DNA of 35,402 nt from Chloroflexota bacterium (GTDB lineage Bacteria > Chloroflexota > Anaerolineae > Promineifilales > Promineifilaceae), in contig JAJRVV010000082.1 of the NCBI GenBank assembly GCA_024277135.1, positions 1 to 35,402 on the forward strand. The letters run 5' to 3'. Below, piece after piece: positions 10,762-30,061 of this stretch. Position numbers and translations under genes: made by a program. The first letter of the stretch is position 1, and every line of letters begins with the position of its first letter. Below the pieces are notes generated by a model, which saw only the letters and a program-made list of their open reading frames with translations, did not search any database and was not told where the DNA came from.

Positions 10762-12752
10762 CAATCCAAAATCAAAAATCTTGTGCTGAGCAAAGCCGAA
10801 GTATCCGAAATCAAAAATCGCGCGCCATCACGGCCGTCCGTCGTCAACACTCGTTCGCCCGTCATCGGATCATACAGGCCAAAACTGACGGCCGTGCCGC
10901 CCGCCTGAACCGGCAGCCAATGCTGCTGTTGAAACAAATCGCCCGGTTGCAGCGTCGTCGGATCAATCCACAAACCATCATCCCCCGCCAGCCATTGTCC
11001 CTCATCATCCAGCAATTGGGCAAATATGCTCAACCTCGGCCCGGCATACACCCCCGGCGGCGGCGGATTGCTGATGAGCGGCAGCGACGGCAAAACCAAC
11101 GGCTCCGCCACCCGCCAGGTCAGCAGCGTCTGCCCCGTCGCTGCGTCATACGTCGCATCCAACAAACACAACCCATTGACGAAACAAGCCGCCGCCGACT
11201 CCGGCAGCACGGCCGTCCTCGCCTCATACAACTGAAACGCCCCCGCTGTCAATCCTGGGGAGGATAAGGCATAAAAATCGGCAAATTCAACGGCCGTCTG
11301 CGGGAACCCCATCCAGCTCAACGATGGCGACAGCAGCGCCACCCGTTCCGGATTGTACCAGCGCGGGCGGATAGCCGTCTCCGCGTCAATCGCCAGCGCC
11401 AGCCGGTCCCACGGCCCCGCCAACAAGCCCGTTACCCCGAAATCGGTCAGCGATGGCTGCGCCGCCAACACGTCCGCCAACGCCGCCACATCCGCCCGGT
11501 ACAAAAAGCGCACCATCCCCCGCTGCGGCCACGTCACAAAATAATCCGGCACATCCCGCGCCGCCACCGCCCCCGCCAATAGCAGCCCCAACAGCAACGC
11601 CCCGCCCCGTTTTTTGTTCATTGTTAATTGATAATTACTAATTGTTTTCACCGGCCACGCCGCCAGCAGGTAAACGGCCGGCTGCGCCAACAGCGTATGC
11701 CCCAGGCTGGCCGGGGGCACGCTGATGAAGGCGGGGGCGATTCCCGCCAGCCACCAGATCAGCAGGAAGGCAGCCGCCAGCGCATCCGGCGACGGCCGTC
11801 CCTGGCGAAACAACGCCAACGCCTGCCGCAACGCCAACGCTACGCCCGCCCAGAAAAAAACGCCCCCAACCGCGCCAAAAACAGGACGGCCGGGGATGTT
11901 ATACAAAAACTCATCGTCCCCGGCGGCGTGAAACATGCTCAGGGTGATAGCGACGTGCCGCCGCAGCGGTTCAAAATTGCCCCGCCCCGCCTCTACCAAC
12001 GGCACGGCCAGCTCCGCCACCCGCCCTTCCGCCGCTGGCTGCCGCGCCAGCGCCGCCGCCAGCGGCAAAGCCAGCGCCGCCGCCAGCCCCAGCCCCAACC
12101 CGATTTCCCGCCAGTGCGCCCGCAGCCGCGCCTGGTCAAACAGCGCCAGCGCTGCCGTCATCGCCAACAGGATCAACGGCAAGCCGCGCCCGGCGAAGTA
12201 GGTGTAAAAGCCGAGCGCCATGAACAACCCCATCAGGAGGGCGGATTTTCGGTTTTGGATTTTGGATTTTGGATTGGGGGTGAGGGTTTGCCAGAAAAAG
12301 ATGAAAGTGAGCAGCGTCAGCAGCGGCAGGGTGATGTGGCGCATGCCAAAGCGGGAATACATGAGCGACCAGAAGCTGAAGGCGAAGGCGGCGGCGGCCG
12401 TCAGAGCGACGGCCGTGCCTCCCAACTTTTTGCCCATCACAAACAAGGCGGGCACAGCCAGCGTGCCCAGGATGGCTGACAGCAGGCGGATGCCCAACGC
12501 ATTGGCGCCAAACAACGCCAGCATCCCGGCGTTTAGCGTGTGGAAAAACGGCTCGTGGCCTGACGCATCGGGGAAATAAACCGCCCACTCCCCATCCAAC
12601 ACCTTTTGCGAGATGATTAGCGAATTGATCAACTCATCATCCCGCCAGCCGGGGGGCACGCTGTCCAATTGCCAGACGCGCAGGGCAAAGGCCAGCAGGG
12701 TGAGGGCCAGGATGAGGAGGCGGGGAGCGGGGAGCGGGGAGCGGGTGATCAT
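10761..12752 (-). CDS. GT39-family membrane glycosyltransferase, paralogue 1
   Basis: The 663-residue protein resembles ArnT/PMT_2 GT-C enzymes, which move a sugar from a polyprenyl phosphate to an acceptor outside the membrane. The first helix is followed by P-P-G-W-R-D-D-E-L, the acidic catalytic loop, then G-H-E-P-F-F-H. About eleven helices follow, with a motif Y-N-I-P-G-R-P shared with the paralogues starting at 14722 and 19715. The C-terminal ~150 residues form a soluble beta-rich domain (L-Q-P-G-D-L-F ... G-L-Y-D). Several segments look repeat-derived: the N-terminus RSPLPAPRLL, loop NPKSKIQN, loop SNYQLTMNKK, and the last ~20 residues. Start and stop both overlap the neighbouring genes (ATGA at 12749-12752). 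Confidence 0.9.
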   Translation of the reverse strand: MITRSPLPAPRLLILALTLLAFALRVWQLDSVPPGWRDDELINSLIISQKVLDGEWAVYFPDASGHEPFFHTLNAGMLALFGANALGIRLLSAILGTLAVPALFVMGKKLGGTAVALTAAAAFAFSFWSLMYSRFGMRHITLPLLTLLTFIFFWQTLTPNPKSKIQNRKSALLMGLFMALGFYTYFAGRGLPLILLAMTAALALFDQARLRAHWREIGLGLGLAAALALPLAAALARQPAAEGRVAELAVPLVEAGRGNFEPLRRHVAITLSMFHAAGDDEFLYNIPGRPVFGAVGGVFFWAGVALALRQALALFRQGRPSPDALAAAFLLIWWLAGIAPAFISVPPASLGHTLLAQPAVYLLAAWPVKTISNYQLTMNKKRGGALLLGLLLAGAVAARDVPDYFVTWPQRGMVRFLYRADVAALADVLAAQPSLTDFGVTGLLAGPWDRLALAIDAETAIRPRWYNPERVALLSPSLSWMGFPQTAVEFADFYALSSPGLTAGAFQLYEARTAVLPESAAACFVNGLCLLDATYDAATGQTLLTWRVAEPLVLPSLPLISNPPPPGVYAGPRLSIFAQLLDDEGQWLAGDDGLWIDPTTLQPGDLFQQQHWLPVQAGGTAVSFGLYDPMTGERVLTTDGRDGARFLISDTSALLSTRFLILD
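10762..10815. repeat. Composite simple repeat at a gene junction
   Basis: Two CCAAAATCAAAAATC-like blocks flank a TTGTGCTGAGCAAAGCCGAA core that resembles a common intergenic repeat. The whole block is translated as the last residues of the upstream GT39 protein (RFLISDTS...RFLILD). Confidence 0.65.
11612..11650. repeat. AATTATCAATTAACAATGAA-type repeat inside a gene
   Basis: A low-complexity AT-rich block in otherwise GC-rich DNA is read as TISNYQLTMNKK within GT39 paralogue 1. A related sequence sits at 19711-19730, at the junction of the methyltransferase and GT39 paralogue 3. Confidence 0.65.
12245..12275. repeat. CAAAATCC repeat inside GT39 paralogue 1
   Basis: Tandem TTTTGGAT units (plus-strand reading) encode NPKSKIQN on the minus strand, in a loop after a membrane helix ending FFWQTL. 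Confidence 0.75.
12719..12747. repeat. CGGGGAG heptamer repeat at the start of GT39 paralogue 1
   Basis: Successive 7-bp units of CGGGGAG are read as the N-terminal RSPLPAPRLL. The period of seven gives changing residues rather than a peptide repeat. Confidence 0.6.
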
Positions 12753-14722
12753 GGGGTGGACACTATCGTCAACGTTAAAAATTCACGGCCGTCCGCCGCC
12801 GCCAAACGCACACAACCAGCCGCGGTTTGCTGGCACAGCCCCACTGCCAGGGGATACAAACCCATTGGCGTATCCGGCGGCAGGGTGATGGTGTGCAGTT
12901 GCAAGAATTGGTCGCCGGGCAGCCAGCCAGCGCCTGGCACATCCAGCCGGTCATCTTGGGCGATGGGCGGGCCGCCCGCCCCCTGCAGGTGAATGAACAG
13001 TTGAGCGTTGGGCAGCGGCCGTTCAATCCGCCACCAAGTCACCACCAAAATCGGTTTGCCCGCGCCGGATGAGAGGCTGAATCCCAACAGCGTCGCCGCC
13101 CCGCCCAACGTGGCCGGTTCCACCGCAATCAATTTTGTTCGCCAATCATCGATCATCGCCGCCTGGTTTACTTGGAACACCTGCAGCGGCCTGTCTGCAT
13201 CCGTCGGGCGCATGGGCAGCACATCAAACAGCACGGCCGTCTCCCAAAAATAGGCCAGCGCCAACGGCGTAAACCTGGGCACGATGACGACGCTTTCCGG
13301 CGCGTCTGGCAGCAGCAAACTGCCCCGGCCGTCAAAATAGCGCGGCGTCACCGCTTCGTTGCGCAGCGTCAGCAAAGCCAGCGCCGGGGTGTGTTCTGGA
13401 GCCGGGGTAATGGTGGAGATAGCCGCCGCTCCCGTCCCCTGCTCATTCAAATACGCCATCGCCGTCATCATCGCCGTCTCATACTGCACCCGCACTTCTG
13501 GCGCATTGGCCCAGGTGACGAAATAGTCGCGGAAGGCGAAGACGGCCGTGCCCCCAAACAAAAACAGCGCCACGATGATAGAAAAACGGCCCAATCGCCA
13601 ATCGCCAATCGCCAATTTCCCCAATCCCGCTAAAGCCAACGCCGGAAACAAATATAACACCGGCTGCATCCCAATCGCCTGCGTCGTCGCTAGTTCCGGC
13701 CCCGTCACCAGCGCCGGCGACAGCCCCAGCCCCAACCAAGCCAACGCCGTCAGCGCCGCCGCGCTTTGGCCGGGGCTTTGGCGGGCGCGGCAGATCAGCC
13801 AGACGGCCGCCCCCAATCCCGCCACAAACAACAGCGCCCACAGCGGCGGCAGCCACGGCCGGCCGGGGATGTTGTACCGCCAGGCTGAATCCCCCTCGAT
13901 GAAAAACAGGCGTAAACTGCCAGCCACATTCGTCCACAACGGCCGCCAATCACCGGCCATCGCCGTCCGCAGCGGGCTGCTCAACTCCGTCACCCGCGCT
14001 TCAACGCCGGGGTTGCGGGCCAGGTAGCGAAACAGGGGCCAAGCCGTCAAACCGGCCGTCGCCAGCGTCACGGCCGTTATCCATCCCACCCTTCGCGCTT
14101 GTCGCCGCGCTCGTTCCCGCTGTCGCCACGCCACCCATCCCGCCGGAACCAACAGCGCCAGCCACAATGCCCGCGCCGGGATGTAGACGTAAAAGGTCAA
14201 TCCCAAAAACAGCCCGGCCAGCAGGGAATTTTGGATTTTCGATTTTGGATTTTGGATTAGGGCGCGCCAGAAAAAGAGGAGGGAGAAGACGAATAGAGTG
14301 GGCAGCAGGGTGGAGCGCAGCATTTGCCGTCCCGTCATCAACGGCCAAAAGGAGACGGCCAGCCCGGCCGCTGTTAACACGGCCGTCCGCGCCCCAAACG
14401 CCAGCCGCGCCCAGGCCGCCATCGCCGCCAGCAGCAGCAAACTGGCATAGACAGATGTCAGCCGCCCTGCCAGAACCGTCGGCCCGATCAGGGCCATCAT
14501 CCCGGCGGTCGCATAATCAAACAACGGTTCGCGGCCGTACCCAATCGTGAAATAAATCGCTCGCTCCCCCTGCACAATCTCCCACGCCGTCAACCCGTGA
14601 TCCGCCTCGTCATGCGTCAAACCCGGCGGCGCGTCCGGCAAGCGATGTAAACGCAAAAAAGCCGCCGCCAGCAGCGCCAGCAGCAACCATCCTTTCAATC
14701 CGTGTACCCGTTGCCGCCTCAT
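12749..14722 (-). CDS. GT39-family membrane glycosyltransferase, paralogue 2
   Basis: The 657-residue protein has the same plan as paralogues 1 and 3: acidic loop P-P-G-L-T-H-D-E-A-D-H-G after helix 1, then G-R-E-P-L-F, about eleven helices, Y-N-I-P-G-R-P-W, the helix preceding D-Y-F-V-T-W, and a C-terminal external beta domain (P-G-D-Q-F-L-Q-L-H-T-I-T-L-P-P). It should transfer a sugar from a lipid-phosphate donor on the outer face. Loop NPKSKIQN is identical to that in paralogue 1. A second loop, AIGDWRLGRF, comes from CCAATCG repeats. ATG 14722 has no Shine-Dalgarno, but a promoter (14732-14760) ends 9 nt before it, so the mRNA may be nearly leaderless. First gene of the 9136-14722 operon. 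Confidence 0.9.
   Translation of the reverse strand: MRRQRVHGLKGWLLLALLAAAFLRLHRLPDAPPGLTHDEADHGLTAWEIVQGERAIYFTIGYGREPLFDYATAGMMALIGPTVLAGRLTSVYASLLLLAAMAAWARLAFGARTAVLTAAGLAVSFWPLMTGRQMLRSTLLPTLFVFSLLFFWRALIQNPKSKIQNSLLAGLFLGLTFYVYIPARALWLALLVPAGWVAWRQRERARRQARRVGWITAVTLATAGLTAWPLFRYLARNPGVEARVTELSSPLRTAMAGDWRPLWTNVAGSLRLFFIEGDSAWRYNIPGRPWLPPLWALLFVAGLGAAVWLICRARQSPGQSAAALTALAWLGLGLSPALVTGPELATTQAIGMQPVLYLFPALALAGLGKLAIGDWRLGRFSIIVALFLFGGTAVFAFRDYFVTWANAPEVRVQYETAMMTAMAYLNEQGTGAAAISTITPAPEHTPALALLTLRNEAVTPRYFDGRGSLLLPDAPESVVIVPRFTPLALAYFWETAVLFDVLPMRPTDADRPLQVFQVNQAAMIDDWRTKLIAVEPATLGGAATLLGFSLSSGAGKPILVVTWWRIERPLPNAQLFIHLQGAGGPPIAQDDRLDVPGAGWLPGDQFLQLHTITLPPDTPMGLYPLAVGLCQQTAAGCVRLAAADGREFLTLTIVSTP
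13590..13618. repeat. CCAATCG heptamer repeat inside GT39 paralogue 2
   Basis: Three to four CCAATCG units encode AIGDWRLGRF just before the helix preceding D-Y-F-V-T-W. This is the same protein position where paralogue 1 carries the SNYQLTMNKK repeat. Confidence 0.65.
14228..14259. repeat. CAAAATCC repeat inside GT39 paralogue 2
   Basis: TTTTGGAT units encode NPKSKIQN at the position equivalent to that in paralogue 1. Paralogue 3 has QKPKKW there and no such DNA repeat. Confidence 0.75.
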
Positions 14723-17714: not shown

Positions 17715-19715
17715 TTAAGGTGATTGGATTAGCAGCGGCGGCGCTTCGGCAAACATCACCCCTGGCTGTTCTACCACCGGCAAGCGGTTGCCGGAGAGCC
17801 GGTCATACACGCCCACAATCGTCTGGTAACGGCCGGGCGCGGCATCCGGCGGCAGTGTGATGGGGTGAATTTGGAAGATGATGTCGCCGCTCTGCCAGTC
17901 CCAGGAAGGGGCGTCCAGCGCGTCCCGCTGGGCCAACACCTGGCCCTCAGTCGTCAATACCTGGGTGAACAATACCACATCGGTTAAATTGGCAGGCGGC
18001 ACGCGCGGGCCAACCCGCGCCGGGTCTGTCACCTGCCAGATGGTGAGCATTTCGGCTGTGCTGCCGGGCGCGGTTGCCGGCGTCAGCCATTGCGCCGTTA
18101 ACAACATCACCCCATCCCCAAAATTTGCCAGCGGCGCCGGCGGCAGCCAGGATTGGGCCGCCGTCACATTCCATTGGTAGCGGGTGAAGCCGGGGTCCAA
18201 ATCATCAGGGCGCAGAGAAATGGCGTCTAACGGCCGTAACAACGCCGCCAACGCCGGATGCAATGGGGTGGAATCGGGGATGATGGCCTGCGCCGCCGCG
18301 CCGCCGGGCCAGATCAGGGCGTAGCGGGCATCCATCCAGCGCGCTGCCCAATCCGGCTGCGGCGCCAGCGCCAGGCTGATGGAGGGATCGTGCGCCGCAC
18401 TAGGATACACGGTGGAAAGCGACAGCGGCCCGGTGATGGCCTCTGCTTCGAGATAGGCGATGGTTTCGACCAGCGTGTGCTGGTATGCGCCGCGCACCTC
18501 TGGCGACTGCCCCCAACGCCCAAAGTAATCGCGGGCGGTAAAGAAACCGGCCAATCCAATCCAGACGGCCGTCACCCCCGCCAACAGATACGGCCGTCCC
18601 AGCGGGGACGGCCGTCGCTTCCCGCCCAATCCATCAACCAACGCCATAAAACCAACCGCCGGCAGCAGATGCACGGCCGACAGCGCCGCCAGATTGCGGG
18701 TTGTATTCGCCGTCGGCCCGGTGATGAGGGAAGGGATGATGCCCACGCCAAACCAGAGCAGCAAAAAGGCATATGGCCGTTGCCGCCACCGCGCCAGAGA
18801 AACCAGAATGCCGACCGCGAAGAAAACGGCCGTCACCCCATCGAACACCGGCCGTCCGGGAATGTTGTACGCCAAAAATTGATCGCCGTAACCGGGCCAG
18901 ACAAACGCCAGCAGCGCCGCCCATCCATTCTGCAGCAACGGCCGCCACTCCCCCCGCCGTAAATTTTGCAGCGGCCCATCCAACATTTCTAACCGGGTGA
19001 TGATGTCCGGGTTCTGCCGCAAATAAATGAACATGGGCGTCACCAAAATCCCGGCCCCCACTAACCCTATCATCATTGGCCGCCATGATTTTTGGAACGA
19101 GTCCCGGTGAATCAGCCACAGGTAAATCAGAAAAATGGGAAAAACCAGCCACGCCACCCGCGCCGCCAGGTAAATGTGGATGGTGAAGGCGACGCAAGCG
19201 GCAAAACCGACAACTGCCCATTTCTTAGGCTTTTGCAATATCTGCCAGAAAAACCAGACGGCCGCCGTCATGAAAAAGGGCAGCATCCCGGCCCGCAGCG
19301 CTTCCCGGCTGGAAGCGACCGGCCAAAAGGAGACGGCCGTCACCGCGGCGGCGATGAGAGCGGTGCGCCGGTCAAACGCTCGTTTGGACCACAAATAGGC
19401 GACGACCATCGCCCCCAGGCCAAACAAGACGTTGACCAGCCGCAGCGCCAACAAGTTTTCGCCAAAGAGGGCCATGCTGCCCGCCACCGTGTAGCTGTAT
19501 AACGGCTCGCTGCCGTAGTTGTAGGGGAAAAAGAAGGGAGTGACGCCATCCAGCACGCCCATCGCCTCACGGCCGTGATTGGCTTCATCATGGGTCAGGC
19601 CGGGGGGGACGGCCGTGAGTTGGTAGCTGCGCAGCGCCCACGCCAGCAAAAAGATGAGTAGCAATGGAAGAGAGCGTTTCAGAATTAAAGAGGGGAGAGG
19701 AGAGGGAATTGTCAA
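17715..19715 (-). CDS. GT39-family membrane glycosyltransferase, paralogue 3
   Basis: The 666-residue relative of paralogues 1 and 2 has the acidic loop P-P-G-L-T-H-D-E-A-N-H-G, then G-S-E-P-L-Y-S-Y, about eleven helices, A-Y-N-I-P-G-R-P-V, the helix before D-Y-F-G-R-W, and the external C-terminal beta domain (S-G-D-I-I-F-Q-I-H-P-I-T-L-P-P). It is predicted to transfer sugar from a polyprenyl-phosphate donor outside the cell. It lacks the NPKSKIQN loop. The loop before D-Y-F-G-R-W instead contains two ACGGCCGT copies (read as GRP and GRR). The start is TTG 19715, overlapping the methyltransferase stop (TTGA), so translation is probably coupled. No in-frame ATG occurs until well after helix 1. 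Confidence 0.88.
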   Translation of the reverse strand: MTIPSPLPSLILKRSLPLLLIFLLAWALRSYQLTAVPPGLTHDEANHGREAMGVLDGVTPFFFPYNYGSEPLYSYTVAGSMALFGENLLALRLVNVLFGLGAMVVAYLWSKRAFDRRTALIAAAVTAVSFWPVASSREALRAGMLPFFMTAAVWFFWQILQKPKKWAVVGFAACVAFTIHIYLAARVAWLVFPIFLIYLWLIHRDSFQKSWRPMMIGLVGAGILVTPMFIYLRQNPDIITRLEMLDGPLQNLRRGEWRPLLQNGWAALLAFVWPGYGDQFLAYNIPGRPVFDGVTAVFFAVGILVSLARWRQRPYAFLLLWFGVGIIPSLITGPTANTTRNLAALSAVHLLPAVGFMALVDGLGGKRRPSPLGRPYLLAGVTAVWIGLAGFFTARDYFGRWGQSPEVRGAYQHTLVETIAYLEAEAITGPLSLSTVYPSAAHDPSISLALAPQPDWAARWMDARYALIWPGGAAAQAIIPDSTPLHPALAALLRPLDAISLRPDDLDPGFTRYQWNVTAAQSWLPPAPLANFGDGVMLLTAQWLTPATAPGSTAEMLTIWQVTDPARVGPRVPPANLTDVVLFTQVLTTEGQVLAQRDALDAPSWDWQSGDIIFQIHPITLPPDAAPGRYQTIVGVYDRLSGNRLPVVEQPGVMFAEAPPLLIQSP

Positions 19716-20536
19716 TTGTTAATTGTTGATTTCTCAGCTACGGCGAACAGTTCCCGCTCAAAGAACCAGCGGAAGGGAGGCAGGTCGAAGGCGATGCGGC
19801 GCAGTCCGGCCATGACAAAACTCTCCTGCCGATTCTGGGGCGGCGAATCCAGCCACACTTTGCTCTTAAACCCGGCTTGACGCAGCGTCTGGCGCATACT
19901 GACGATGTCTTGCTCGTTCACATGCACATCCTGATTCACCGGGGTGATAGCGCGCGGGTCTTTGGGATACGCCCCGCCCTGTCCCAGCCAGGTACGCACC
20001 CGGCGCACCCAGGGGTAAGCATAGGCGTCGTACCAGCGATTGGGCGCGGTGTGGATGATGAAACGGCCGTCATCCCGCAACACCCGCCGCACCTCCACCA
20101 TCGCCTCATGCAGTTCCCACGGATACAGATGTTCCACCACGTCAAACATCAGCACCCGGTCGAAATAGCCGGTGGGAAAAGGCAGCTTCTTGGCGTCAGA
20201 GCGGCACACCCCGGCTTTGATGGCGTGATCGGCGGCGGCCGCGCGCTCCGAGGCGATCACATCCCGCGTCATCCTGGCGGCTGCCTCAGCATAATCCATG
20301 CCAAACGCAGCGATGCCCAGCCGCATACAATGGCGCACAATTTCCCCCCGGCCGCAACCCACGTCCAACAGCCGCATTCCCGGTTTCACCCCAGCCACGG
20401 CAAAAGCGTCATGCAGCCGCCGCGAAAGATGCTGTCCTTCTGATTCCAGAAACACATCATACCCTTCGCAGGCGGTCAAAAAATACTCCTCTGTGTACAA
20501 TTCAGAGGGCAACGATTTCTTTTGATTTGATGTCAT
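19712..20536 (-). CDS. SAM-dependent methyltransferase (Methyltransf_11/23 type)
   Basis: The 274-residue enzyme has motif I LLDVGCGRGEIVRH, motif II-like FGMDYAEAAARM, the conserved L-M-F-D-V-V-E-H-L-Y-P-W-E, and V-L-R-D-D-G-R-F-I-I-H-T-A-P-N-R-W-Y-D. This is the pattern of class I enzymes that often methylate sugars, lipids or quinones. Its coupling to a GT39 gene suggests a glycan or glycolipid substrate, which is inference. The last residues, AEKSTINN, arise from an AACAATTAACAATTGA-type repeat, so the original C-terminus may have been replaced or extended. The start is ATG at 20536. It heads the two-gene unit 17715-20536. Confidence 0.88.
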   Translation of the reverse strand: MTSNQKKSLPSELYTEEYFLTACEGYDVFLESEGQHLSRRLHDAFAVAGVKPGMRLLDVGCGRGEIVRHCMRLGIAAFGMDYAEAAARMTRDVIASERAAAADHAIKAGVCRSDAKKLPFPTGYFDRVLMFDVVEHLYPWELHEAMVEVRRVLRDDGRFIIHTAPNRWYDAYAYPWVRRVRTWLGQGGAYPKDPRAITPVNQDVHVNEQDIVSMRQTLRQAGFKSKVWLDSPPQNRQESFVMAGLRRIAFDLPPFRWFFERELFAVAEKSTINN

Positions 20537-26616: not shown

Positions 26617-26708
26617 GGTATTCAGTTGGCAGTATTCAGTATCCAGTATTCAGTATTCAGTTGGCATTGTTACTGATTACTGAACACTGATTACTGCTTA
26701 CTGACCAC
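26617..26708. repeat. CAGTATTCAGT-type inverted repeat, copy 1
   Basis: Runs of CAGTATTCAGT on the left and ACTGATTACTGAACACTG on the right can fold back on each other. The right part supplies the last nine codons of the hutI gene. A second copy is at 30065-30155. Confidence 0.7.
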
Positions 26709-27953
26709 TGAACCCTGTTTGATGACCATTTTCACCAGATTTGTACCATAACGATAGCCTAACTGCCGGTAATCAGCTACGTCCAGAATGAGGATGTCCG
26801 CCTGTTTGCCTGGTTCCAAGCTGCCGATTTCATCCCCCCGGCCGATGGCGTGAGCGCTGTTGAGGGTGGCTGCCGCCAATGCCTGCGCCTGCGTCAGTCC
26901 CATGTAACGGCAGGCCAGCGCCATCACCATTTGCATGGATTCGCACCAGGTGGTGCCGGGGTTGAGGTCAGTTGCCAACGCCAATGCCCCGCCCGCCGCC
27001 AGAATGGCTTTGGCCGGGGTGTATTCGCTGTGTCCCAGGCCAAAAGGCGTACCCGGCAGGCCAACGGCGACGGTGTTCCCCTGCCCCAGGGCAGCGATGT
27101 CGGCGTCTGGCGTTTTCACCAGATGGTCGGCGGAAACCGCGCCCAGTTCGACGGCCAGTTTGGTTCCGCCCAGCCCTTCAAATTCGTCGGCGTGGACTTT
27201 GAGCCGGCAGCCCAGTTCGGCGGCGCGGGTGAAAATGCGCCGGGTTTGGGCCACGTCGAAGACGCCCGCTTCGCAAAATACGTCGCAAAAGAGGGTGGTT
27301 TGGCGGCGGCGCATCCAGTCGGCCCCGGCAGGCAGGAGTTCGGTGATGATGTGTTGCACGTAATCGTCGGTACGGCCGCTCCACTCTTCCGGCACAGCGT
27401 GAGCGGGCAAAAAGGTGGCGGCCAGTTCGATGGGTTGGCGTTGGTTTAGCTGCCAAATGGCGTCTAGCTGTTTTAACTCGGCCGCTTTTTCCAGACCGTA
27501 CCCCGTCTTGGCCTCGGCGCTGGTGGTGCCATGCGCCAGCATCCGCGCCAGGCGGGGCAGGTTTTGGACCACTAGCTGCTCCAGGCTGGCCGCCCGCGTC
27601 TGGTACACGGTGGACATGATGCCGCCGCCCGCCGCCATGATCTCCATGTACGTTGCGCCGCCCAGCCGCATCTCGAATTCGTGGGCGCGGTCGCCGGCCC
27701 AGGGCAGGTGGGTGTGCGGGTCCACAAAGCCGGGGGTGAGGCAGCGGCCGTGCGCATCAATGGTGGTTTCGGCGGTGTATCTGGCTCTCAGGTCAGCCGA
27801 GGGGCCGGTTTCCAGGATACGGCCGTCCGCCACCGCCACCGCCCCATTTTCGATGATGCCCAAATCCCCCAACCGTCCCCCCCGCTGCGGCCCATCATGG
27901 CCGGGAACCACGCAAACCTGACTGGCTGAATGAATTAACAAATCAATTTTCAT
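26691..27953 (-). CDS. hutI: Imidazolonepropionase
   Basis: The enzyme (420 residues, close to the family's ~410) hydrolyses 4-imidazolone-5-propionate to formiminoglutamate, the third step of histidine degradation in the cytoplasm. It has the amidohydrolase metal site D-P-H-T-H-L-P-W-A-G-D-R, T-Y-x-E-I-x-A-A-G-G-G-I, E-A-K-T-G-Y-G-L, V-H-A-D-E-F and A-T-D-L-N-P-G-T, all typical of HutI. ATG 27953 overlaps the MFS stop (ATGA) and is preferred over GTG 27962. The last residues, QGSVVSKQ, come from the CAGT repeat. No hutH, hutU or hutG is in the window, so the rest of the pathway must be elsewhere or absent. Confidence 0.95.
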   Translation of the reverse strand: MKIDLLIHSASQVCVVPGHDGPQRGGRLGDLGIIENGAVAVADGRILETGPSADLRARYTAETTIDAHGRCLTPGFVDPHTHLPWAGDRAHEFEMRLGGATYMEIMAAGGGIMSTVYQTRAASLEQLVVQNLPRLARMLAHGTTSAEAKTGYGLEKAAELKQLDAIWQLNQRQPIELAATFLPAHAVPEEWSGRTDDYVQHIITELLPAGADWMRRRQTTLFCDVFCEAGVFDVAQTRRIFTRAAELGCRLKVHADEFEGLGGTKLAVELGAVSADHLVKTPDADIAALGQGNTVAVGLPGTPFGLGHSEYTPAKAILAAGGALALATDLNPGTTWCESMQMVMALACRYMGLTQAQALAAATLNSAHAIGRGDEIGSLEPGKQADILILDVADYRQLGYRYGTNLVKMVIKQGSVVSKQ

Positions 27954-29173
27954 TGCTTCCACTCATTTTTCTCTCCTGTTTTCTCTATGTTCTCTGTGTC
28001 CTCTGTGGCTTCAGCTTCCTTTACCCAATACGCCAAAATCAACACCGAAATCAACATCAGCACGGCCGCCGTCACCCCATTGCCTAAAAACCCGGCGCGG
28101 AGGGACACTTCCGGCCCGATGAACGAACCCAGCGCCCGCCCCAGGGCAAAGGCGGCCACGTTGACCGACATGACCACGCTGCGGGCGCTGGGAACCAGCT
28201 CCGTCAGCAACGGAACGCCGCCGACGACCGTCACCTCGAAGGTGAAGAAGAGGAGGAATAATGTGACCAATGCCCCGGTGAGGGAGGCGGCCGTCATCGA
28301 GATCGCCACATAGAACAGCGCGTTCATCAACCCGGTGGTGATGATCACCCGCCGCTTACCGAAGCGATCCACCGACCATCCGGCAAACAGTTCGCCTGTG
28401 ATTTCTGCCATGCCGATCACCCCGGACGCCAGCCCCAAGCTGGTCAACGTCAGGTCATAGCTTTGCTCCATCCAATCGCCGAAGATGATGAACAAATTTT
28501 CATTAGCGGCCATTGACAGGGAAGTATAAGCCGCCATGGCCCAAATCACCCGGTTTTGGCGGATGATCCGCCACATTTGCCGAAAACCGGAGACGCGGCC
28601 GGTATGACGCGGGCTGGGGGGCAGGACGCGGCGCAGGCCAACAGCGGCCAGCACGGCCAACGCCGCCAGCCCGACGAAGGGGGATGACCAGCCCCAACGG
28701 GCGATGGCAAAGCCGACCGCCGGGCCGCCCAGCAACAATCCCGCCGACCAGGATATTTCGGTGATGGCAATCGCTTTGCCGCGCGCGGCGTAGGGGACGG
28801 CGTCGCCCACATAAGCCTGCATCGCCGGGTCGTAAATCACTTTGGCGATGGAGATGGCGATGAGGGCAATGCCCAGCGGCCAGTAGGCGGGCCAGAGGAA
28901 GATGAAGAGACAGCCGCCGCCTAACAGCAGTAAGGCGCCGACCATGACGACGCGACGGCCGTACCGCTCTGACATGGGGCCGAACAAGGGGCTGAGAAAA
29001 CCGGAAAAGTTGCGCAGGGTGATGAGCTGGTAGACGGCCGTCAATTCTACTCCCAGTCCCCGCGCCAACGCTGGCGCAAAGGGATACACCATGCGCAAAC
29101 CCGTGTTCATCAACAAGCGGGCCAGCGAAATCGCCGTCAACTGCATGGGGAGGGAACGCTGCTTTCCAGACAC
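27950..29173 (-). CDS. Major facilitator superfamily transporter
   Basis: The 407-residue protein has about 12 membrane helices. The conserved loop between helices 2 and 3 reads G-P-M-S-E-R-Y-G-R-R, and its counterpart in the second half reads G-W-S-V-D-R-F-G-K-R-R. It is coupled by ATGA overlap to hutI, so it could export or import a related metabolite, but MFS substrate cannot be read from sequence. The hydrophilic tail E-A-E-A-T-E-D-T-E-N-I-E-K-T-G-E is encoded by a CACAGAGGACACAGAG-type repeat and is probably not ancestral. The start is GTG 29173; ATG 29146 is an alternative. Neither has a good ribosome site. Confidence 0.88.
   Translation of the reverse strand: MSGKQRSLPMQLTAISLARLLMNTGLRMVYPFAPALARGLGVELTAVYQLITLRNFSGFLSPLFGPMSERYGRRVVMVGALLLLGGGCLFIFLWPAYWPLGIALIAISIAKVIYDPAMQAYVGDAVPYAARGKAIAITEISWSAGLLLGGPAVGFAIARWGWSSPFVGLAALAVLAAVGLRRVLPPSPRHTGRVSGFRQMWRIIRQNRVIWAMAAYTSLSMAANENLFIIFGDWMEQSYDLTLTSLGLASGVIGMAEITGELFAGWSVDRFGKRRVIITTGLMNALFYVAISMTAASLTGALVTLFLLFFTFEVTVVGGVPLLTELVPSARSVVMSVNVAAFALGRALGSFIGPEVSLRAGFLGNGVTAAVLMLISVLILAYWVKEAEATEDTENIEKTGEKNEWKQ
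27981..28009. repeat. CACAGAGGACACAGAG repeat in the MFS tail
   Basis: On the minus strand GCCACAGAGGACACAGAGAA forms the end of the MFS gene. A near-identical block is at 34372-34400 in an intergenic gap. Confidence 0.7.
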
Positions 29174-29201
29174 GGGCAGAGTGTAACCGACAGCGATACG
29201 G

Positions 29202-29269
29202 GCGACAAGCGCGGCGACAAGCGCGGCGACAAGCGCGGCGACAAGCGCGGCGACAAGCGGGCGACAAGC
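29202..29269. repeat. 12-bp tandem repeat in a divergent intergenic region
   Basis: Six copies of GCGACAAGC begin at 29202, 29214, 29226, 29238, 29250 and 29261. Five are spaced 12 bp apart with GCG between them; the last is 11 bp from its neighbour. The array lies between the MFS start (29173) and the -35 box of the plus-strand gene. Confidence 0.9.
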
Positions 29270-29311: not shown

Positions 29312-30061
29312 ATGAGCAAATCTAGATCATCTGTCTTTGCCAATTCGCCAACCGGGCGCATGGCCGTCGCCTTTTTAGTTCCTTTGTTGACGGCCGTCCT
29401 CCTCAGCGCCGTTTTCCTCAACCCCGACAACCCGCAGGCCACTGCCGCCGCCTTTTTTGCCGGGATGGGCATCGCCAGTTGGTTGATCGGCTGGCGTCGG
29501 TATGGGCTGCCAGGGCTGGGCTTGCGCGGGCGACGGCCGCTCTATGCCAGCATCGGTTTCGCCGCGTTAGGCTGGATCGTCTTCCTGTTGTTCCGCTTCA
29601 TCTTCGTCCGCGTCGTCGGCTTTGGCCCCGCCGATTCCACGCGCAGCTTCATCTTCCTGCTGTTGTTTGAGGCGTTTGCCGTCCAGTTGTGGGCGTATGG
29701 CCTGCTGTTCCGCGTCCTGGCCGACTGGCGCGGGCCGTTGGCGGCGGCGGTTGGCAGCGGCGTCATTTTTGGCGCCATCGCCTACCTGCTGTTTCAAGAA
29801 TCCTTTTTCGGCGACCTGACCAGTCTGCTCTACTTCATCCTGTGGGGCGTCTTTTACGGCGTCATCCGTCTGCGTACCGGCTCCATTTTGGGCAGCGTCG
29901 TCATTCAGGCGATGCACAGCTTTACCGCCTGGGTGGTCATGCCGCCGCAAACGCCGCCGGTCGTCAGCGAGGTGCAAACGTTGTATCTGGCGGCAGGCAT
30001 CGCCTATCTCATCTTCATCTGGCGACTCTGGCCCAAAGAAGAGGCGGATTATCGGGTATAA
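29312..30061 (+). CDS. CPBP-like polytopic membrane protein, degenerate motifs
   Basis: The ~249-residue protein has about seven hydrophobic helices. Its second half resembles the CPBP/Abi fold: F-E-A-F-A-V-Q-L-W-A-Y-G-L-L-F-R where EExxxR would lie, G-V-I-F-G-A-I-A-Y-L-L-F at motif 2 (no His), and L-G-S-V-V-I-Q-A-M-H-S-F at motif 3. Because motif residues are missing, peptidase activity is doubtful and the family call is tentative. ATG 29312 is chosen over GTG 29294 because GTG lies inside the promoter. A 12-bp tandem array sits upstream. No operon partner is evident; the next gene is separated by a CAGTATTCAGT repeat. Confidence 0.7.
   Translation: MSKSRSSVFANSPTGRMAVAFLVPLLTAVLLSAVFLNPDNPQATAAAFFAGMGIASWLIGWRRYGLPGLGLRGRRPLYASIGFAALGWIVFLLFRFIFVRVVGFGPADSTRSFIFLLLFEAFAVQLWAYGLLFRVLADWRGPLAAAVGSGVIFGAIAYLLFQESFFGDLTSLLYFILWGVFYGVIRLRTGSILGSVVIQAMHSFTAWVVMPPQTPPVVSEVQTLYLAAGIAYLIFIWRLWPKEEADYRV

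Follow-up and report, generated by a model that had tools for sequence, protein, structure and literature searches.

The systems closest to the repeats reported here are the Rickettsia palindromic elements (RPEs) and their Wolbachia counterparts (Ogata et al. 2000, 2002, 2005; reviewed, along with other small mobile sequences, in PMC2229807), the heptameric tandem repeats of the STRR-like type, which the excerpts of PMC4692102 and PMC4679880 considered here place in Cyanobacteria (Nostoc), Xanthomonas, Beggiatoaceae, and others, and the REP elements of the GTAG and CGTC families. The latter families include intragenic units, the GTAG type being represented in Chloroflexi, and a nearly shared REP insertion site has been recorded in recB of two Xanthomonas species (PMC3733652). 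No paper linking heptamer repeats or highly iterated palindromes with Chloroflexi was found in the literature searched.

The window analyzed in this study, i.e., the whole stretch of 35,402 nucleotides from a Chloroflexota bacterium of the family Promineifilaceae (contig JAJRVV010000082.1, positions 1 to 35,402), harbors three reverse-strand paralogues of one glycosyltransferase family, namely, paralogue 1 (P1; 10761..12752; 663 aa; Pfam PF13231/PF02366), paralogue 2 (P2; 12749..14722; 657 aa; Pfam PF13231), whose stop overlaps the P1 start, and paralogue 3 (P3; 17715..19715; Pfam PMT_2). P1 and P2 are direct neighbors in most of the family genomes that were examined. The AlphaFold2 model of P1 (pLDDT of 90.9) returned AglB, ArnT, yeast OST, and Pmt4 as its best solved matches in Foldseek, and that of P2 (pLDDT of 89.7) displays a similar helix order. 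The combination of a PMT_2/PMT profile and a GT-C fold is that by which GT-C/PMT_2 (GT39-like) glycosyltransferases are recognized, and P1 and P2 are, by profile and modeled fold, predicted to be membrane enzymes of this class. The P1 gene appears functional, since D39 and E40, two acidic residues situated in the first outer loop, show no variation among 46 P1 orthologues.

A preliminary description of this DNA had proposed that simple repeats occupy the same two loops of the paralogous enzymes, an observation which is real and broader than first noted. In loop A, just after the helix ending FFW, both P1 (12246..12275, reverse strand; period-7 score of 17) and P2 (14228..14258, reverse strand; score of 18) carry AAAATCC (AATCCAA) heptamers which read NPKSKIQN, as had been described, the sites being the turns between helices 138-157 and 164-182 in P1 and between helices 139-156 and 159-179 in P2. 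The described CCAATCG heptamers of P2 loop B (13591..13616, reverse strand; unit AATCGCC; turn between helices 342-371 and 375-404) form a perfect array of 3.7 copies, which reads AIGDWRLG (TRF, 100% matches; period-7 score of 19). Loop B of P1 (11614..11643, reverse strand; turn between helices 354-375 and 379-410), which reads SNYQLTMN, is likewise repeat derived, being composed of four imperfect units of the AATTANC type (AATTAGT, AATTATC, AATTAAC, and AATGAAC), with 19 of 23 positions matching at shift 7 (binomial p of ~8e-8, for that segment only and before correction for choosing it). A fifth array, overlooked in the preliminary description, is situated at the start of P1 (12720..12745, reverse strand), where 3.7 copies of GCGGGGA read RSPLPAP (TRF, 100% matches; period-7 score of 19). 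Gene ends, too, are built by heptamer arrays: that at 19707-19731 of the window specifies a C-terminus (STINN and the stop codon), and others supply start or stop regions. Also in the window, two adjacent intergenic heptamer arrays, of the GTATTCA and TTACTGA types, occupy positions 26618-26711, and a near-perfect 12-nt tandem repeat, GGCGACAAGCGC, present in 5.8 copies, is located at 29201-29269, in the interval between two called genes, of which one ends at 29146 and the next starts at 29360.

A genome search for these repeat families, which had been suggested as a check, places the heptamers mainly between genes, with a minority inside them. Array statistics were drawn from 429 kb of the 4.98-Mb assembly of the window's genome (G000; 251 contigs), in which 44 period-7 arrays reached a score of at least 14, compared with 0 in order-2 Markov sequence; counts at other periods were near 0, with the exception of period 14, which represents the double unit. 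The AAAATCC pattern has 168 genome matches at a maximum of one mismatch, compared with 0 for the reversed control. At a score of at least 12, the 429 kb contain 58 arrays, which our own simple gene caller divides into 36 intergenic, 10 gene-end, and 12 gene-internal arrays, and array density is approximately 20-fold higher between genes (0.67 per kb) than in coding sequence (0.032 per kb). Such overrepresentation of tandem 7-nt units relative to other periods, at mostly intergenic positions, is the hallmark of STRR-type repeats. The annotated internal arrays are located between Pfam domains (xanthine dehydrogenase-like, LeuRS, and GT4 proteins) or in membrane proteins (YfhO and PMT), and one internal-array protein was without a match to any Pfam family.

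The label "intergenic" of the preliminary description consequently holds for the heptamers but not for the palindromic octamer ACGGCCGT, 64 of whose 69 copies in the 35-kb window (order-0 expectation of 0.9) are inside genes, with eight in P3. Two of these copies are indeed present in P3 loop B (18590-18597 and 18608-18615), as had been described; they are, however, part of the octamer background, and P3, which falls outside the interval that the preliminary description covered, bears no heptamer array in the window's genome. P3 was, therefore, dismissed as an instance of loop-filling repeats, the octamer being a matter separate from the heptamer arrays. ACGGCCGT is the commonest palindrome at the loci of most family genomes, and TCGGCCGA, TGCCGGCA, or GCGGCCGC replaces it in this capacity in some relatives. 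We take it to resemble the HIP1 type of cyanobacteria, and its behavior here would presumably be HIP1-like behavior outside that phylum.

Among 49 P1 and 39 P2 orthologues, retrieved from relatives that are mostly metagenome-derived assemblies, 84 period-7 arrays were identified (51 in P1 and 33 in P2), and 49 of the 51 and 32 of the 33 are located at the N-terminus or at residues ~140-180, 300-340, and 360-400. Mapping onto predicted structures, also suggested beforehand, places the array sites in turns between helices, loops A, C, and B corresponding to inter-helix turns 158-163, 316-321, and 376-378 of the P1 model. If the helices are counted from an N-terminus placed in the cytoplasm, in line with other GT-C enzymes, all three loops are predicted to lie on the cytoplasmic side, at a distance from the active site. 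The variable stretches in the C-terminal part of P1 (residues 482-515) contained no arrays among the orthologues, and arrays in the C-terminal part were found in four of the other GT39-like paralogues.

The occurrence of NPKSKIQN at equivalent positions of P1 and P2 might suggest ordinary protein conservation, in which such peptides would be functional motifs of GT39 enzymes and the DNA repeat a side effect, yet this reading is extremely improbable. Orthologues at 45 to 60% identity carry unrelated loop peptides or none, and the same peptides are missing from homologues of other genera as well as from those found within the order or class, the loops of which are short or filled with unrelated repeats. 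Furthermore, shuffling of synonymous codons, which preserves the protein, leaves 0 to 1 arrays, thus abolishing the periodicity, and the same loops contain GDWRLEI as well as PISNLQS, the peptides read from the two strands of a single repeat. Protein conservation was dismissed on the basis of the shuffling and of the orthologue comparison. The arrays are of DNA-level origin, and the earlier proposal that DNA repeats act as a source of peptide sequence at recurrent loops is borne out by the loss of signal upon shuffling and by the match between the loop unit tested and the genome's repeats.

The loops are occupied by a considerable variety of repeats. Arrays of period 7 to 11 were present in loops A, C, and B of 19 of 47, 11 of 49, and 12 of 49 P1 orthologues, respectively, and of 16 of 35, 3 of 37, and 11 of 39 P2 orthologues. 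Distinct units, some of which are close variants, numbered 18 (A), 6 (C), and 8 (B) in P1 and 18, 4, and 13 in P2, with at least 40 different units of 7 to 11 nt across these loops; 8-nt units are used by one high-G+C genus. When mapped onto a P1 tree computed from the sequence outside the loops, array presence or absence changed at least 8 (loop A), 5 (loop C), and 4 (loop B) times, according to calls which hinge on the score threshold and miss decayed arrays. Different repeat families at an equivalent loop, a central point of the preliminary description, are encountered even within one genus: loop B in genus g22 holds an AATCTCC hairpin (G049 and G047), an AATGGTC array (G044), a AATTACCC hairpin (G021 and G034), or none, G040 having what appears to be a decayed remnant. 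The sister species G014 and G029 also carry differing loop repeats. Recurrence at these loops extends to further GT39-like paralogues, with arrays at loop A or B in 11 of 44; these include 4 of the 12 P3 orthologues examined, whose arrays are of period 7/8. As a separate observation, P2 loops B/C of G014, G021, G044, G047, G049, G051, G023, and G050 contain other hairpin types, with 9- to 10-nt units such as CGCGGAT and CACAGATT and with GAAACCGGGTTTC-like stems.

Glycosyltransferases are classic phase-variable genes, and the units do not amount to whole codons, so that the arrays could be envisaged as contingency loci, in which gain or loss of a 7-nt unit would shift the frame and switch the enzyme on or off. 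This is very unlikely, given that the arrays are short (3 to 5 units), that they frequently are imperfect or belong to a hairpin, and that no frame break was seen at a loop array among the orthologues, which were themselves chosen by their open reading frames. In one split P2 orthologue, N bases are present close to the break.

In many of the loops, a pair of inverted arms is present, e.g., GGAGATT...AATCTCC, at a level above that of codon shuffles. The 78-nt hairpin of G049 loop B has approximately 40 relatives in its own genome (query positions ~1 to 70; 83 to 90% identity), and the 20 copies read out are composed of two arms of approximately four units each and a short spacer which differs by copy, within unrelated flanks. 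This hairpin is, as is characteristic of RPEs, a palindromic element dispersed in many copies per genome; the notion of a conserved body around an invariable spacer was ruled out for this family, as the spacers vary. Five of the 20 copies are in-frame inserts in long reading frames, three of which specify membrane-looking proteins, and in-frame insertion with the frame kept, a further RPE characteristic, was found in the P1/P2 loops, a hydantoinase, a helicase, and other membrane proteins. At the hydantoinase and helicase sites, relatives were found without a hairpin, with the same hairpin type, or with another family. The array-bearing loop of the helicase is similar in length to its counterpart in G023, which has no array, and this match in length appears to suit overwriting more than insertion. 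The hydantoinase-like protein (L271/L289 in G049) contains three separate heptamer-derived segments, at which relatives have other families or none.

For the unit tested, AATCTCC, the loops are linked to the genome's own repeats: all eight genomes with this unit in a loop have at least 17 copies genome-wide, compared with 4 of the 29 genomes without loop AATCTCC (Fisher p = 1.3e-5). Similarly, ACGCATC arrays are abundant in the five g22 genomes which carry them in loops and absent from G040. Such observations bear on purely local replication slippage, whereby each loop would expand its own short seed without copying between sites. Although the blending of arrays into unit-like flanking codons (helicase and loop B) and the mixed, drifting units within arrays are as slippage would produce them, this explanation is unlikely: shared units would not be expected, whereas, in 340 kb of G036, AATCTCC/AATCTCT accounts for 14 of the 18 arrays; the presence of AATCTCC in loops goes along with its abundance across the genome; and dispersal is seen for hairpin elements, which consist of two arms in inverted orientation. 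Because units are common across the genome, copying or a common template is needed, and local slippage alone is insufficient.

Such copying would presumably be performed by a template-based mobile or recombination process. The insertion act itself was unseen, as no clean pair of empty and filled sites with target duplication was found, and exact target-site duplication was not established because the aligned orthologues are too different at their edges. When the G036 loops were compared by BLAST with 340 kb of their own genome, arm matches were obtained, and a copy including the spacer was not among the matches listed. By eye, no GTAG or CGTC tag was common to the ends of the 20 G049 copies. 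A RAYT/Y1 transposase was considered as the driver and is unsupported by the counts, as Y1 genes do not appear to track repeat abundance: Y1_Tnp was detected in 27 of 28 genomes, while none was found in G022, where a single unit is present in 218 copies.

It is proposed, with a probability of roughly 80%, that permissive loops of the GT-C enzymes have time and again received copies of dispersed repeats and exchanged them for others. The loop peptides would derive from the translation of fragments of repeat DNA which is scattered, mostly between genes, and is built of tandem 7-nt units (8-nt units in one high-GC genus) and commonly laid out as a G-rich array, a short variable spacer, and an inverted C-rich array, which together would form a hairpin. 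As neither 7 nor 8 is divisible by 3, a tandem array specifies one and the same cyclic peptide in whichever of its three frames a strand is read; each repeat therefore has two possible peptides, and a peptide free of stops in one frame is free of them in the other two. The repeats of a given genome would, at low frequency, be copied into its genes and survive only where they leave the reading frame uninterrupted and where additional residues are tolerated by the protein. In the GT-C family, such places would be three short turns on one membrane side (loops A, C, and B) and the N-terminus. Once inside, arrays would decay, expand, or be replaced by other families, such that sister species come to differ in the repeats at the same loop.

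The preliminary description had regarded these insertions as tolerated, and tolerance would account for the depletion of arrays in genes and their loop positions; the loop arrays may, indeed, be nearly neutral for protein function. Tolerance may not be the whole story, however, because the P1-P2 pair of G036 is denser in arrays than intergenic DNA (1.66 compared with 0.09 per kb), its 4.2 kb holding 7 of the 18 arrays of 340 kb (binomial p of 1.3e-9), an excess that would not be expected if random insertions were simply tolerated. The loops may be preferred rather than only tolerant, through targeted insertion or through selection, e.g., for translation pausing between membrane helices or for flexible cytoplasmic linkers, and a preference is possible, if rather doubtful. 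It would agree with the convergence of unrelated families (7-, 8-, 9-, and 10-nt units) on the same loops, with the P1-P2 pair of G000, which holds 3 of the 12 internal arrays (p of 2e-4), and with G044 (p of 8e-4 for P1-P2, in a region chosen around P1-P2). Against this, the G000 P1-P2 density is approximately equal to the intergenic density, many orthologues are without any repeat in these loops, unrelated enzymes bear the same elements, and the density could also be raised if in-frame inserts were retained for longer.

Repeated copying into permissive loops would make this gene family a natural series in which repeat DNA has become protein sequence at the same sites many times. Related genomes offer donor repeats as well as occupied, empty, and decayed loops, and the manner in which selfish or neutral repeats create protein segments, and the sites at which they do so, is testable within one gene family. 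For annotation purposes, GDWRLEI, PISNLQS, NPKSKIQ, HASRITD, and SRGAGEQ in this group should be regarded as repeat derived and not as conserved motifs.

When compared with the known systems, the repeats may be likened to RPEs in that both are dispersed palindromes located between and, in frame, inside protein genes, the RPEs being translated and apparently tolerated (PMC2229807). They differ in construction, since RPEs are elements of 105 to 146 bp (PMC2229807), whereas here arms of tandem heptamers flank a variable spacer; unlike RPEs, many families are present per genome, and the same orthologous loops are occupied repeatedly by different families. With the STRR-like heptamers, as presented in the excerpts of PMC4692102 and PMC4679880, they share the 7-nt unit, dispersal, a mostly intergenic location with few copies inside open reading frames, and a repertoire which differs by genome. 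Those excerpts describe such heptamers mainly as intergenic or regulatory and report no recurrent use of homologous protein loops; the Chloroflexota host, the hairpin arrangement, and the stop-free reading set the present repeats apart from what is presented there. Like REP elements, they are small palindromes of high copy number that are sometimes intragenic (PMC3733652); unlike REP elements, their copies are without a GTAG/CGTC tag at the ends read, their arms of ~28 nt are built of repeats, and their abundance does not appear to follow Y1 transposase genes. The present system combines features of RPEs, REP elements, and heptamer repeats and goes beyond them in that different families have settled repeatedly in the same loops, in several paralogues and genera.
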